From Devosia equisanguinis (GTDB lineage Bacteria; Pseudomonadota; Alphaproteobacteria; Rhizobiales; Hyphomicrobiaceae): a stretch of DNA of 34,708 nt. The notes below the pieces were generated by a model. It saw only the letters and a list, made by a program, of their open reading frames with translations. It ran no database searches and was not told the origin of the DNA. The position numbers were made by a program, and so were the translations under genes. Where the stretch lies: contig CAMAYR010000025.1 of the NCBI GenBank assembly GCA_945862355.1, forward strand, positions 1 to 34,708, in the 5' to 3' direction. Shown one piece after another: positions 14,760-20,151 of the stretch; the stretch's first letter is position 1, and the number at the start of each line of letters is the position of its first letter.

Positions 14760-14788
14760 TTGACACCCCACTTTTGTTATATTGTAAC
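14760..14788 (+). promoter_or_regulatory. Predicted promoter of the zinc cluster
   Basis: A perfect -35 hexamer TTGACA at 14760-14765, then a 17-base spacer and a weak -10 TGTAAC at 14783-14788. The -10 element lies inside the Zur-like palindrome, so repressor binding would block RNA polymerase. The predicted start point, near 14795, leaves a leader of about 45 bases. Confidence 0.5.
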
Positions 14789-14790
14789 AA
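14774..14790. promoter_or_regulatory. Zur-box-like operator
   Basis: Inverted repeat TTGTTA-TATTG-TAACAA. Its core TGTTATATTGTAACA matches the Zur consensus core TGTTATAWTATAACA known from proteobacteria at 14 of 15 positions. It sits 50 bases before the ZrgA-like start and overlaps the predicted -10. Inference: Zur represses the downstream cluster when zinc is sufficient. Confidence 0.65.
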
Positions 14791-14839: not shown

Positions 14840-15460
14840 ATGCGTCATGTGCTGCGCACTGCTCTCCTAAGTGCCACGTTGCTCGGTATCGCTGCTCTGC
14901 CGGCGGCGGTGCTGGCACAATCACCGTCGGCCGACGAGCCGCAGCGCCAGCTCGGCGCCCATGCCCACGGCGCCGGCAAGCTCGGTATCGCCATAGAGGG
15001 CCGCACCGTGGAGATCGAGCTCGAGGCTCCCGGCAGCGACATCGTCGGGTTCGAGCACTCAGCCAAGACGGCCGAGCAAAAAAAGGCGGTCTCGCAGGCG
15101 CGCGCGCTGCTCGCCAAACCAATGGCGCTGTTCAAGCTTCCCGAGGCCGCCGGCTGCAAGGTCGCCAGCGCGAAGGTCAAGCTCGTCGGTGGCAGCCACG
15201 CCCACAGCCACGGGCATTCGCACGGCAACACCAAGGCCACATCTGCGAAGCCGAAGGAGGCTGAAACCCACTCGGAGTTCCATGCCGAATACCGTCTGAC
15301 CTGCGCCAAGCCGGACCAGATCCGATCTGTCGAGCTCGAGTATTTCAAAACTTTCCCCCGCGCCGAGTCGCTGGAGGTCAGCCTGATCGGCGCCAAGGGA
15401 CAGGCGAAGCAGAAGGCCACCCGCGACAAGCCTCGCATCGAAATCGGGGGCGGGAGCTGA
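14840..15460 (+). CDS. ZrgA-like (DUF2796) periplasmic zinc-related protein
   Basis: A 206-residue secreted protein. The signal peptide covers about residues 1-26 (MRHVLRTALL..., ending VLAQ). The mature part begins with QLGAHAHGAGKLGIAIEG and LEAPGSDIVGFEH, the DUF2796/ZrgA hallmark, and carries a His-rich loop GSHAHSHGHSHGN (about 114-126) likely to bind zinc. ZrgA-family proteins are induced by zinc limitation in gammaproteobacteria. Start ATG 14840 is chosen because it begins the signal peptide after GCGAGGTATCCCC; an upstream in-frame extension to 14774 would cross the Zur box. It is first in a cluster with an ABC ATPase, permease and DUF3299 protein. Confidence 0.87.
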   Translation: MRHVLRTALLSATLLGIAALPAAVLAQSPSADEPQRQLGAHAHGAGKLGIAIEGRTVEIELEAPGSDIVGFEHSAKTAEQKKAVSQARALLAKPMALFKLPEAAGCKVASAKVKLVGGSHAHSHGHSHGNTKATSAKPKEAETHSEFHAEYRLTCAKPDQIRSVELEYFKTFPRAESLEVSLIGAKGQAKQKATRDKPRIEIGGGS

Positions 15461-15533
15461 CACGGCCGGCTCTTGCAGTCAGGCCGATGCTGGGCCTAAT
15501 GATGCTGGCTCTATCGAAAGGGACCAAGACCCG

Positions 15534-16298
15534 TTGAGCAACGTCCTGGACATCGACGACGCAGCCTTCAGATGGTCGGGCCGCGACGGCTTCGGCCTCG
15601 AGGTCGACCACTTCACACTGGCACGACGCGAGAAGCTCCTGCTGATCGGCCCATCAGGCAGCGGCAAGTCCACGCTGCTCTCCCTCATCGCCGGCATCAT
15701 CGCCCCTCAGCGCGGTCGCATCGTCGTGCTCGGGACCGACATCGCGAACCTCGGCGCATCGGCCCGCGACCACTTCAGGGCCGAGCACATCGGCGTCATC
15801 TTCCAGATGTTCAACCTGCTGCCTTACGGCAGCGTGATCGACAACGTGCTCCTGCCGCTGAGCTTTGCCCCGGAGCGGCGCAAGCGGGCAGGCGGTGCCG
15901 CCGGCGAGCGGGCGGAGGCCGCGCGGCTTCTCTCCCGCCTCGCCCTCGATCACGCCCACATCGAGAGCCGTTCTGCATCGCGCCTCAGCGTCGGCCAGCA
16001 GCAGCGCGTCGCAGCCGCCCGCGCGCTGATAGGCCGGCCCGACCTCGTGATCGCCGACGAGCCGACCTCCGCGCTCGATCGCGGCCGCCAGATCGCATTC
16101 CTCGACTTGCTCTTCGCCGAGATAGAAGCCGCCGATGCCGGCCTTGTCCTGGTGAGCCACGACGAGACGCTGAGCCACCGCTTCGACCGCGTCTGCGCCC
16201 TCGACGAGATCGCGCGCACAACCGCGGCAACGGACGCGCCTTACCCGGCCCCTCCCGCCGACCAATCAGCGCCCGGCCAAGGGGACGCCCCGGCATGA
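15534..16298 (+). CDS. ABC transporter ATP-binding protein (MacB/LolD-like)
   Basis: A 254-residue ATPase with Walker A GPSGSGKS (about 39-46), Q-loop FQMFNLLPYGSVIDNVLLPL, signature LSVGQQQRVAAARAL, Walker B LVIADEPTSALD and switch His in LVSHDE. It resembles the LolD/MacB class, which couples to single FtsX-type permeases for lipoprotein or periplasmic mechanotransmission rather than classical import. The start is TTG 15534 after GAAAGGACC; no in-frame ATG fits. Its TGA overlaps the permease ATG. It is the ATPase of the Zur-box cluster, matching the gene order of zinc-responsive loci such as P. aeruginosa PA4063-PA4066 (recalled, not searched). Confidence 0.92.
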   Translation: MSNVLDIDDAAFRWSGRDGFGLEVDHFTLARREKLLLIGPSGSGKSTLLSLIAGIIAPQRGRIVVLGTDIANLGASARDHFRAEHIGVIFQMFNLLPYGSVIDNVLLPLSFAPERRKRAGGAAGERAEAARLLSRLALDHAHIESRSASRLSVGQQQRVAAARALIGRPDLVIADEPTSALDRGRQIAFLDLLFAEIEAADAGLVLVSHDETLSHRFDRVCALDEIARTTAATDAPYPAPPADQSAPGQGDAPA

Positions 16299-17554
16299 TC
16301 GTCCTGCGGCTCGCTGCCCAATCCCTCCTCAACCGCTGGGTGACGGCCCTGCTCACGGTCGCCTCGATCGCGCTCAGCGTCATGCTGCTGCTCGCCGTGG
16401 AGAAAGTCCGCACCGGCGCGCGGCAGAGCTTCACCGACACGATCTCCGGCACCGACCTCATCGTGGGGGCGCGCTCGGGCGCCATCCAGCTCCTGCTCTA
16501 CTCGGTGTTCAGCATCGGCAATGCGACCAACAACATCACCTGGGCGAGCTACGAGGAGATCGCCCGCCAGCCGGAGGTCGCCTGGGCGGTGCCGCTGTCG
16601 CTTGGCGACAGCCATCGCGGCTTCCGCGTCCTCGGCACCACTCAGGACTACTTCAAGCACTACCGCTACCGCCGAACCAACAGCCTCGTGCTCGCCGAAG
16701 GCGCAGTGTTCTCAGACCTGTTCGACGCCGTGCTCGGCGCCGATGCAGCCCGGGCCCTCGGCTACAAGGTCGGCGACAGCATGGTGGTCGCCCACGGCCT
16801 CGGCTCGGTCTCCTTCGTCGAGCACGACGACAAGCCGTTCCGCGTCGCGGGCATCCTCGCCAAGACCGGCACGCCCGTCGACCGCACAGTCCACGTCAGC
16901 CTCGAGGCGATCGAGGCGATCCATGTCGATTGGCAGAGCGGCGCGCGCCAACCCGGCCAGGCCATCACCGCCGACGACGTCCGGAAGATGGACTTGAAGC
17001 CCCAGGCCGTCACTGCCGCGATGCTGGGGCTGAAGTCGCGGCTCGCTACGTTCCGCCTGCAACGAGCCATCAACGAGTACCCGCGCGAGCCGCTATCCGC
17101 GATCATTCCCGGCGTGGCGTTGCAGGAGCTATGGGATCTCGTCAGTGTCGCCGAGACAGCCCTCACCGCCGTCTCCATCATGGTCGTGGCCACCGCCCTC
17201 ATCGGCATGGTGGTGATGATCCTGACTACGCTGAACGAACGCCGCCGCGAGATGGCGATCCTGCGTTCCGTCGGCGCCCGGCCTCGCACCATCCTCGGCC
17301 TGCTGACGGCGGAAGCCGGACTGCTCACCATCGCAGGCGTGGCGCTCGGCACGGCCTGCCTCTATATAGCGCTGCTAGTGCTGCGGCCCGTGCTGGATCG
17401 GCTGTATGGCCTCCATCTTCCGCTCGATGCCCTGCGCTGGCAGGAGTGGCAGATGCTGGGCGCAGTGGTGCTTGCAGGTCTCTTGGCAGGTCTGCTGCCT
17501 GCCTTGCGCGCCTATCGCCTGTCGGTAGCCGATGGCATGACGGTGAAATCGTAG
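16295..17554 (+). CDS. ABC transporter permease (MacB/FtsX type)
   Basis: A 419-residue permease. One N-terminal helix (about 13-35, WVTALLTVASIALSVMLLLA) is followed by a ~230-residue periplasmic domain and three C-terminal helices (ALTAVSIMVVATALIGMVVMILTT region, the TIAGVALGTACLYIALLVL region and the LGAVVLAGLLAGLLPALRAYRL end). The conserved NERRREMAILRSVGARPRTI loop is the FtsX/MacB coupling element. Start ATG 16295 overlaps the ATPase stop. FtsX-type pumps move lipoproteins or act on periplasmic partners; direct zinc transport is not established. Confidence 0.92.
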   Translation: MIVLRLAAQSLLNRWVTALLTVASIALSVMLLLAVEKVRTGARQSFTDTISGTDLIVGARSGAIQLLLYSVFSIGNATNNITWASYEEIARQPEVAWAVPLSLGDSHRGFRVLGTTQDYFKHYRYRRTNSLVLAEGAVFSDLFDAVLGADAARALGYKVGDSMVVAHGLGSVSFVEHDDKPFRVAGILAKTGTPVDRTVHVSLEAIEAIHVDWQSGARQPGQAITADDVRKMDLKPQAVTAAMLGLKSRLATFRLQRAINEYPREPLSAIIPGVALQELWDLVSVAETALTAVSIMVVATALIGMVVMILTTLNERRREMAILRSVGARPRTILGLLTAEAGLLTIAGVALGTACLYIALLVLRPVLDRLYGLHLPLDALRWQEWQMLGAVVLAGLLAGLLPALRAYRLSVADGMTVKS

Positions 17555-17571
17555 GCCCCACGAGGACGACG

Positions 17572-18162
17572 ATGACAGGACGAATGAACGCTCACCGCCG
17601 GACGTGCCCAATGGCGCGGCCTCTCGCGCTGCTCGCTGCCGCTGTCGCGATCGCGTCCGGCCACATCGCGCCTGTCAACGCGCAGGACGCGCCGCTGAAG
17701 CTCACCTGGTCGAGCCTCATGCCGCCAGCGCCGCCCAAACCGCCCCGCTCCATCGTCGCCGGCCGAACACCACTCGACCCGCTGAACCCGACGCACGAGA
17801 GATCCGTGCCGGAAGGGCGTTGGCTGACGGGTGGCAGATCGACGCCGAGCACACCGGCCCCGGTCGTAGAAGCGCTCAACGGCAAGCGCGTGCAGCTCGG
17901 CGGCTATGTCGTGCCGCTCGATTTCGAGGCGAACGGCGTGAAGGAGTTCCTGCTGGTGCCGTTCGTCGGCGCCTGCATTCACGTACCCCCGCCGCCGGCA
18001 AACCAGATCGTCTACGTACAGGCCGCCAAGGGCTTCGAGGTCAAGAGCCTGTTCGAGCCTGTTTATGTAACGGGCCGGATGACCACCACGCCGTCGTTCA
18101 CGGGGCTGGCCGACGCCGGCTACACGCTCGAGGCCGAGCGCATCGATCCGCGCAAGGAGTAG
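17572..18162 (+). CDS. DUF3299 secreted protein of the zinc cluster
   Basis: A 196-residue protein with an N-terminal signal segment (about residues 14-37) and a Pro-rich linker, then the DUF3299 domain: GKRVQLGGYVVPLDFEANGVKEFLLVPFVGACIHVPPPPANQ, with a conserved Cys-Ile-His that could bind metal. ATG 17572 follows CGAGGACGACG; ATG 17584 and ATG 17611 are alternatives. It lies 17 bases after the permease. DUF3299 proteins regularly accompany ZrgA-like proteins and MacB-type ABC genes. The function is unknown but is probably periplasmic and metal-related. Confidence 0.87.
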   Translation: MTGRMNAHRRTCPMARPLALLAAAVAIASGHIAPVNAQDAPLKLTWSSLMPPAPPKPPRSIVAGRTPLDPLNPTHERSVPEGRWLTGGRSTPSTPAPVVEALNGKRVQLGGYVVPLDFEANGVKEFLLVPFVGACIHVPPPPANQIVYVQAAKGFEVKSLFEPVYVTGRMTTTPSFTGLADAGYTLEAERIDPRKE

Positions 18163-18166
18163 AGGT

Positions 18167-19027
18167 TTGCTGACCGATCGACGACGCGCGCTCCTGACCC
18201 TCGCCGGCGCCTTCACCGCGACCGCTCTTCCAGCCCATGCTCAGACGCAGACGCCCGACGGCACGATACCGCGTCTGGCGATCTCGCCGCAGATCGCCGC
18301 CCGGGTCGGCCAACAGGTTTGGCAAAACGAGAGCGGTCGAAGCATTGCCGGCCTCACCGCCTGGAACGACGCGGAGGATTTCCCCTCGCTCGGCATCGGC
18401 CACTGGATCTGGTTCAAAGCGGGCGGCCATCCCCTGTTCGAGGAAAGCTTCCCCCGCCTGCTCACCTTCATGCGGGAGCGTGGTGCGAAGCTTCCCCCCT
18501 GGCTCGACAAGCCGACCATCCCGCCCTGCCCGTGGCCGAGCAAGGTCGAGTTCCAGCGCCAGTTCAATTCACCACAGCTCACCGGCTTGCGCCGCTTCCT
18601 CGCCGACACGATCCCCCTGCAAACCCAGTTCCTGCTCGTGCGCGCGGAGGCGGCGATACCCCGGATGCTCGCATCACTGCCCACAGCCGCCGAGCGCCGA
18701 CACCTGCTGGCCCAGCTCCACCGCGTGGTTCGTTCTTCGCCCGATCTCTATCCGCTGATCGACTACGTCAACTTCAAGGGCGAGGGGATCAGCGAAAAGG
18801 AAACCACCTTCGACCCTTCCACCGGCCGCCGCGAAGGCTGGGGCACCAAGCATCTCCTGCTCGAGATGAAGGGCACCGCCGTGGGAGCGCCCGCGCTGGC
18901 GGAATTCTCGCGCGCTTCGAAATTCGTGCTCGACCGCCGCATCCGCAATCATCCCCCGAGCCAGCGCTGGCAAGCAGGCTGGCACAAGCGTTGCGCCACC
19001 TACCGTCACCCCCTCGCCACCACCTGA
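18167..19027 (+). CDS. Secreted lysozyme-like protein of unknown function, last gene of the zinc cluster
   Basis: A 286-residue protein with a signal segment of about 25 residues that resembles a Tat signal (DRRRALLTLAGAF). The mature part shows VGQQVWQNESGRSIAGLTAW followed by FPSLGIGHWIWF. A Glu (Glu55) ahead of a GIGH motif (76-79) resembles the catalytic layout of phage-type (GH24) lysozymes. It matches a widespread uncharacterised family, recalled by pattern. The start is TTG 18167, five bases after the DUF3299 stop, with a very close GAGG; no better start is visible. Inference: peptidoglycan remodelling linked to zinc starvation. Confidence 0.75.
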   Translation: MLTDRRRALLTLAGAFTATALPAHAQTQTPDGTIPRLAISPQIAARVGQQVWQNESGRSIAGLTAWNDAEDFPSLGIGHWIWFKAGGHPLFEESFPRLLTFMRERGAKLPPWLDKPTIPPCPWPSKVEFQRQFNSPQLTGLRRFLADTIPLQTQFLLVRAEAAIPRMLASLPTAAERRHLLAQLHRVVRSSPDLYPLIDYVNFKGEGISEKETTFDPSTGRREGWGTKHLLLEMKGTAVGAPALAEFSRASKFVLDRRIRNHPPSQRWQAGWHKRCATYRHPLATT

Positions 19028-19161: not shown

Positions 19162-20151
19162 ATGGCCGAAATCGTGCTCGCCATCGGCACCTCGCACAGC
19201 CCACTGCTGGCGAGCCCGCCGGAGGACTACCCCAAGCACGCCGAGATCGACGCCAAGGGCCGCAAGTTGCTCGACCGGAACGGCCGCCCCTGCACCTACG
19301 GCGACCTGCTCGCCGCCGCGCCAGCCAACCTCGCCAGCCAGATCGAGATGCCCGTGCTCGAGGAGCGCGCAGCCAAGTGCAACTCCGCCATCGTTCACAT
19401 CGCCCGCTCGATCGAGGACGCCCGCCTGGATGCCCTGATCGTGATCGGCGACGACCAGAACGAGCAGTTCTTCGACGACAACATGCCAGCGATACTGATC
19501 TACTGGGGCGACACGATCGAGAACCGCGAACTCGTCATGCCGGCCGACGCCCCGCAATTCTGGCGCAAGGCCCGCTCCCAGTATCACGAGGCCGACGGAC
19601 GGCGCGAGTACCCCGTCGACGCCAAGCTCGGCCTGCACATGATCCAGCACCTCGTCGGCGCGGAGTTCGACATCTCCCATTCCCGCCGCCTCTCCAAGGA
19701 ACACGGCGAAGGCCACGCCTTCGGCTTCGTCCACCGCCGCCTCATGCCCGGGAAAGTCGTGCCCATCGTGCCCGTCGCGCTCAACACCTATTTCCCGCCG
19801 AACCAGCCTCGCCCTTCACGGTGCTGGCGGCTCGGCGAGGAGATAGCCCGGGCCGTCGCGCGCTTCCCCTCCGATGCCCGTGTCGGCATCCTCGCCTCCG
19901 GCGGCCTCAGCCACTTCACCGTCGACGAGGAGTTCGACCGCGATTTTCTCGCCGCCTGCAAGCGCAAGGACGCCGCCTGGCTCTCCGCCGTGCCGGTCGA
20001 GAAGCTCAACTCCGGCAACTCCGAGATGCGCAACTGGATCACCACGGCAGGCGCTGCCCAGCTCCTCGACGTGACGTGGCAGGAGTATGTGCCCTGCTAC
20101 CGCTCGCTCGCCGGAACCGGATGCGGCATGGGCTTCCAGGTGTGGCAGTAG
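19162..20151 (+). CDS. LigB-family class III extradiol dioxygenase
   Basis: A 329-residue enzyme of the LigB superfamily (non-haem Fe(II) extradiol ring cleavage, as in the beta subunit of protocatechuate 4,5-dioxygenase). The N-terminus EIVLAIGTSHSPLLASPP contains His12 at the position of a LigB iron ligand. Further landmarks are IVIGDDQNEQF, SKEHGEGHAFGF, VPIVPVALNTYFPP and GGLSHF. The C-terminus ends in an NSEMRNWITTAGA region, as in LigB-like proteins. ATG 19162 follows AAGGAAGCTCCACC. The substrate is not determined; the neighbouring TctCBA transporter suggests a carboxylated aromatic. Confidence 0.87.
   Translation: MAEIVLAIGTSHSPLLASPPEDYPKHAEIDAKGRKLLDRNGRPCTYGDLLAAAPANLASQIEMPVLEERAAKCNSAIVHIARSIEDARLDALIVIGDDQNEQFFDDNMPAILIYWGDTIENRELVMPADAPQFWRKARSQYHEADGRREYPVDAKLGLHMIQHLVGAEFDISHSRRLSKEHGEGHAFGFVHRRLMPGKVVPIVPVALNTYFPPNQPRPSRCWRLGEEIARAVARFPSDARVGILASGGLSHFTVDEEFDRDFLAACKRKDAAWLSAVPVEKLNSGNSEMRNWITTAGAAQLLDVTWQEYVPCYRSLAGTGCGMGFQVWQ

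Follow-up and report, generated by a model that had tools for sequence, protein, structure and literature searches.

A predicted lysozyme-superfamily protein of an uncatalogued family encoded at the end of a putative Zur-controlled zrg operon

Two described systems lie closest to the locus reported here, which occupies positions 14840-19027 of a 34,708-nucleotide stretch of DNA (contig CAMAYR010000025.1, forward strand; hereafter the window). The zrgABCDE operon of Vibrio (PMC9817125, PMC9820375) encodes ZrgA, an ATP-binding cassette (ABC) ATPase, a permease and a DUF3299 protein under a Zur box, together with a small DUF2607 membrane protein, the product of its fifth gene. PA4063-PA4066 of Pseudomonas aeruginosa (PMC11481552, PMC8561739) is a Zur-regulated four-protein set that includes a two-subunit MacB-like transporter and lacks a fifth gene. 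The window carries the same four-protein set under a Zur box nearly identical to that of Vibrio, but its fifth gene (gene 5) encodes a predicted lysozyme-like enzyme. The main interest of the locus is this lysozyme-like family, which is uncatalogued, and its capture by a putative Zur operon. That a Zur-repressed zrg operon has here captured a zinc-independent wall glycosidase with a zinc-sparing role is a reading to which we give an even chance. The five genes are co-directional open reading frames, and these and the elements discussed with them are as follows.

14775..14789, + strand: Zur box TGTTATATTGTAACA, 50 bases 5' of the zrgA start, with 1 mismatch to the consensus
14840..15460, + strand: zrgA, secreted His-rich zinc-binding protein of the ZrgA family (PF10986, E=1e-52)
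15534..16298, + strand: ABC ATPase of the LolD/MacB/FtsE type, TTG start (ABC_tran PF00005, 6e-30)
16295..17554, + strand: type VII ABC permease, MacB/LolC/FtsX-like (Pfam MacB_PCD 1e-14, FtsX 2e-15)
17572..18162, + strand: DUF3299 periplasmic protein, ZrgE/PA4066-like (PF11736, 1e-39)
18167..19027, + strand: gene 5, secreted lysozyme-superfamily protein by predicted structure, TTG start
18329..18403, + strand: predicted active-site segment of gene 5, from invariance in 76 relatives and the helix and strands of the model
Gene 5 codons, + strand: E55 at 18329-18331, E70 at 18374-18376, S74 at 18386-18388, GIGH (residues 76-79) at 18392-18403
L048 and L049 (contigs C64 and C87, same genome), at ~1501 in each: other Zur near-matches

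All five reading frames lie where an earlier sequence-only reading had placed them, and the cluster it described, ZrgA, ABC ATPase, permease and DUF3299 followed by a fifth gene, agrees with the Pfam matches. The first four genes make up a standard Zrg module: a ZrgA-family protein, a separate ABC ATPase adjoining a MacB/FtsX-type permease, a DUF3299 protein and a promoter Zur box are all present. When compared by sequence with the PDB, ZrgA matched 7ahw (PA4063, E=1e-33) and 8ezw (a ZrgA-type zinc-binding protein, 2e-20), the permease best matched LolF (2e-7) and MacB (1e-3), and the DUF3299 protein matched 4hsp ('hypothetical protein', 1e-29). Against NCBIfam, ZrgA scored 156 bits with the ZrgA equivalog model, below the cut-off of 185, and the best models for the ATPase (LolD, YbbA and FtsE) were all under cut-off. 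Among 16 alphaproteobacterial ZrgA loci, the ABC and permease genes are present in 14 and DUF3299 in all 16, with the DUF3299 gene sometimes first in order; one locus (L142) carries two successive DUF3299 matches. The sequence-only reading had regarded such loci as zinc-repressed by an unsolved mechanism. The first half of that statement stands, the second not wholly, given that ZrgA of V. cholerae is required for zinc-limited growth of a znuA mutant (PMC9820375) and that pyochelin-cobalt export has been proposed for the homologous PA4064/PA4065 pair of P. aeruginosa (PMC11481552). The Zrg core has accordingly been viewed in print as a zinc importer (PMC9820375) or a MacB-like pyochelin-cobalt exporter (PMC11481552); by analogy, the core in the window would serve in metal or metallophore handling, and our data are compatible with either view.

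The near-perfect Zur palindrome before zrgA had gone unmentioned in the sequence-only reading. A Zur match of this kind is expected 0.02 times by chance in the window, and a TTGACA hexamer (14760-14765) lies upstream of it. The sole exact copy of GTTATANTRTAAC in the 5.05-Mb genome is this box, and the genome holds two other places that match with one mismatch, at znuA (PF01297, 1e-65) and between the genes for a TonB-dependent receptor and tonB. The three Zur-like sites suggest a small Zur regulon. Two Fur-family genes are present in the genome, one for Irr and one with Zur as its best model, and the Zur-like gene overlaps znuC (contig C30, L202). A perfect core palindrome, the same kind of site, precedes zrgA in another member of the genus (L012, at 4407), and Zur-like boxes also precede several zrg clusters of other alphaproteobacteria; the published Zur site of V. 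parahaemolyticus is TGAGTGTTATATTATAACACCCG (PMC9817125). Because of the box itself, the sites at zinc loci, the Zur-like gene of the genome and the boxes at other zrg clusters, the cluster is likely to be bound and repressed by Zur, and the sites at znuA and at the TonB receptor uphold the zinc repression that had been supposed from the letters. At two loci a Fur-family-like gene, probably Zur, stands directly upstream of zrgA (L142, 6520-6906; L136, 1345-1914).

The layout makes it likely that all five genes are co-transcribed. Only 4 bases separate the DUF3299 stop (18162) from the TTG of gene 5 (18167), and the putative ribosome-binding site of gene 5 is an AAGGAG just 5' of that stop. The stop, the AAGGAG and the closely spaced TTG are kept in all 4 members of the genus, so placed that gene 5 abuts DUF3299 on a common strand with tight spacing in 4/4 genomes. 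No terminator or promoter pattern was detected between the cluster genes on the window strand, a weak test.

The product of gene 5 had no sequence match in Pfam, NCBIfam, PHROG or the PDB and none among plasmid and viral-contig sequences, and no Pfam family is common to its 76 relatives. An AlphaFold2 model calculated from the alignment of these relatives has a mean predicted local distance difference test score (pLDDT) of 91.6. Foldseek searches of the PDB and BFVD with this model returned weak rows only (best GH46, E=0.18). In VIA-align the top matches were GH46 chitosanases (PDB 1qgi, 7xh0; Z 9-10 over ~190-200 residues), followed by the VgrG3 muramidase (7.7), Brucella SagA (7.0), pesticin-T4 lysozyme (6.7) and T4 lysozyme forms (5-7), with MltC/MltE (~5) and P1 endolysin (4.6) the lowest named. 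Lysozyme-superfamily domains and T4-lysozyme fusions account for nearly all of the 50 structural matches listed, and GH46 ranks above the rest.

The hallmarks of the lysozyme superfamily are an acid Glu at a helix C-terminus (ES motif), a most-conserved beta-hairpin, a second acid and a Ser/Thr (PMC2976769, PMC7511926). In the predicted model of gene 5, E55-S56 close a helix at 41-56, strands lie at 74-75 and 80-81, and E70 is located four residues before S74 (in GH46, the second acid is five before Thr). E55, E70, S74 and GIGH (G76-H79) are invariant in 76/76 relatives, as is the whole S74-L-G-I-G-H79 hairpin. The modelled fold, with its helix-end Glu and a conserved hairpin bearing the second acid and Ser/Thr, supports assignment of gene 5 to the lysozyme superfamily, and the residue order would make E55 the acid, E70 the base and S74 the water holder. 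The sequence-only reading had pointed to a Glu...GIGH pattern and a lysozyme-like protein; the pattern is there (E55 and GIGH 76-79), and the predicted structure together with the invariance of E55 bears out the resemblance. In GH46 chitosanases the acid Glu is likewise followed by the second acid and then the Ser/Thr, but their sequence identity with gene 5 is 8-12%, and gene 5 has no PF01374 or significant profile match. Likewise, the VgrG3 muramidase domain, SagA and T4 lysozyme have the superfamily core and a GIGH-type hairpin, but are smaller domains, and their homology to gene 5 is undetectable by sequence (GH24 profile test).

What the enzyme acts upon is best addressed through its export signals and gene neighbours. 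Gene 5 of the window has a twin-arginine-like signal sequence (RRRALLTLAG), a signal of this type is carried by the copies of the genus, and a lipobox pattern occurs in the signal region of ~31/76 homologues. At 11 loci, all from a single verrucomicrobial clade, the gene directly 3' of the gene 5 homologue on the same strand encodes a YkuD L,D-transpeptidase (L085, L087, L091, L093, L099, L100, L101, L107, L109, L123, L129), and the pair is likely a two-gene cell-wall operon. An L,D-transpeptidase works on peptidoglycan, and it is because of this neighbour that we favour peptidoglycan as the substrate; the signals and the YkuD gene together fit an envelope enzyme that acts on the cell's own wall, where gene 5 probably cuts the glycan strands. 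The enzyme could also act on chitosan in the way of GH46 or, like DslA (PMC7511926), on peptidoglycan that has been de-N-acetylated. The nearest folds, secreted chitosanases and the VgrG3 muramidase, might also speak for zinc foraging, in which released enzyme would lyse neighbours or digest chitosan-like polymers and so free nutrients and metal; we find this hardly credible, as many homologues resemble envelope lipoproteins and some adjoin L,D-transpeptidases, suggesting action on the own wall.

Neither Pfam nor NCBIfam has an entry for the gene 5 family, which is widespread: at least 556 relatives came out of a scan of 84,980 species genomes. The 80 that were kept are mostly from Verrucomicrobiota, the alphaproteobacterial ones including Bradyrhizobium and Hyphomicrobiaceae. 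Conservation of the fifth gene beside zrg loci, a check set beforehand by the sequence-only reading, failed outside the genus: zrg adjacency was found at 2 of the 80 gene 5 loci, both from the window's genus, and at 0/78 elsewhere, while 0/16 alphaproteobacterial zrg loci contain gene 5. Across 103 genomes of the window's family, gene 5 occurs in 12 and ZrgA in 50. The two are adjacent in all four members of the genus, which consists of uncultivated bacteria, and lie apart in the other genera of the family; in one genome (G353) they share a contig at a distance of 125 kb. Their co-occurrence in the family (10/12 versus 40/91, p=0.013) was not used as evidence, the genomes being related and not independent. 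No convincing gene 5 was found in 289 genomes of the class, and ZrgA exceeded its cut-off in 18 of them.

In most other genomes of the family gene 5 stands beside a conserved gene for an SSF sodium:solute symporter; among the Hyphomicrobiaceae-type loci this neighbour is seen in L009 (7803-9266), L052, L057, L060, L147, L152, L154, L155 and L157. A tree of 84 proteins unites the gene 5 copies of the genus in one clade (support 100/99) beside those of Bradyrhizobium and Hyphomicrobiaceae. The simplest reading is a single event in the genus ancestor, by relocation or transfer, that added gene 5 to the end of the zrg operon. The symporter was searched for in the genus, as a mark of the ancestral empty site, and was not found, so relocation from the symporter site is not supported.

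These contexts bear on the view that gene 5 is a passenger, a wall glycosidase that reached its place behind the zrg genes by chance, with a job unrelated to zinc and maybe its own promoter. Homologues in the family that stand beside the symporter gene without a Zur box speak for it, as do the hundreds more in unrelated contexts. Nonetheless, linkage to zrg persists in 4/4 genomes of the genus despite divergence of gene 5 down to ~70% identity, the spacing in the window is 4 bases, and the weak test for a promoter inside the operon detected none; on balance we consider a passenger unlikely, if a serious contender.

The sequence-only reading had further proposed FtsEX-like regulation of the hydrolase by the ABC module. 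In such a scheme the ATPase and permease would pass ATP-driven motion to the periplasm and thereby switch on the gene 5 hydrolase. There is a formal likeness to FtsEX with EnvC, PcsB or RipC, where a type VII ABC pair likewise goes with a periplasmic wall hydrolase: the permease belongs to the type VII superfamily with FtsX and MacB, and a hydrolase gene lies next to it in the gene order. Under such coupling, transporter and hydrolase should occur together from genome to genome, and permeases with a hydrolase beside them should stand out from those without one. Our comparisons show neither, and the model is therefore unsupported. First, the pairing is not conserved: outside the genus, the permease gene and gene 5 are each found at loci that lack the other. 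Second, the permease aligns almost gap-free with permeases of clusters that lack gene 5, and its periplasmic domain has no genus-specific insertion. Lastly, the permease is of MacB/LolC-like type and not an FtsX, scoring 17-20 bits with NCBIfam FtsX models against cut-offs of 225-255. On linkage and permease comparison we rejected FtsEX-like coupling, which we regard as very improbable. A structure prediction of the permease from a 3-sequence alignment reached a pLDDT of 37, and this model was unused.

Operonic linkage to a large envelope ABC machine would also suit a role in local wall remodelling, with gene 5 opening peptidoglycan for assembly of the Zrg/MacB-like machine in the manner of secretion-system lytic transglycosylases. 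We judge this improbable, since other zrg systems lack such an enzyme, Zrg is not known to span the wall and the cluster has no MacA-like or TolC-like gene.

Returning to capture of a zinc-independent glycosidase by the zrg operon, we postulate that zinc-loaded Zur sits on the box at 14775 and that zinc depletion would lead to transcription of all five genes. ZrgA, the ABC ATPase/permease and DUF3299 would keep their usual role in metal or metallophore handling. In this genus the operon has acquired a further gene at the 3' end, whose product is a predicted exported glycosidase from an uncatalogued family of the lysozyme superfamily. Glu55 would be its general acid, Glu70 its base and Ser74 the residue that places the water, with no metal cofactor; by cutting peptidoglycan glycan strands, the enzyme would supply wall cutting at times when amidases and endopeptidases that depend on zinc are left without it. 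Gene 5 would thus be co-regulated with the ABC module and not controlled by it. A precedent exists in V. cholerae, where Zur induces ShyB, a wall endopeptidase resistant to ethylenediaminetetraacetic acid (PMC6381278). ShyB is a wall hydrolase under Zur and induced by zinc starvation, as predicted for gene 5, but it cleaves peptide bonds whereas gene 5 would cut glycan strands. More tentatively, and with some doubt, we propose that gene 5 and its relatives in hundreds of bacterial genomes make up a glycoside-hydrolase family of their own, as yet uncatalogued, within the lysozyme superfamily, and that Zur-controlled, zinc-independent glycan cleavage by gene 5 here sustains wall growth when zinc enzymes fail.

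Several points weigh against this account. The tie of gene 5 to zinc comes from one genus, and solo gene 5 homologues in the family show no upstream Zur box above chance. With one mismatch allowed, ~4 Zur sites are expected by chance in the genome, and the pattern reversed as a control matched just as often; the number of sites is therefore uninformative, and the case for a regulon is that all three sites lie at zinc-uptake loci. Metal independence of gene 5 is assumed from its superfamily, and the activity, binding and expression of the system are predictions from sequence and model. Profile comparison with hhalign gave a probability of 0.03% for GH46 (PF01374) and 1% for GH24 (PF00959), a missing sequence relation of the kind that is usual between lysozyme-superfamily families. 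Membership of GH46 was rejected on that value and the lack of a PF01374 match in the 76 relatives, and membership of the GH24 phage-type lysozymes on its own value and the lack of a PF00959 match.

If the proposal holds, the few wall hydrolases so far connected with zinc shortage would be joined by a glycan-cutting type. The analysis also brings to light a sizeable lysozyme-like protein family unlisted in Pfam and NCBIfam, and separates two ideas, in that zrg transporters need no hydrolase partner and the gene 5 hydrolase family needs no zrg.

Two public contigs of the window's genus (L050 and L051) are labelled Devosia equisanguinis; by genome grouping they fall into one family with Filomicrobium and Hyphomicrobiaceae records, and the species label may be wrong. 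Downstream of gene 5, a 134-base gap is followed by a gene for a LigB-type extradiol dioxygenase (19162-20151 of the window), which still adjoins gene 5 in L011 and L013, the two other genus members with contigs long enough to show it.

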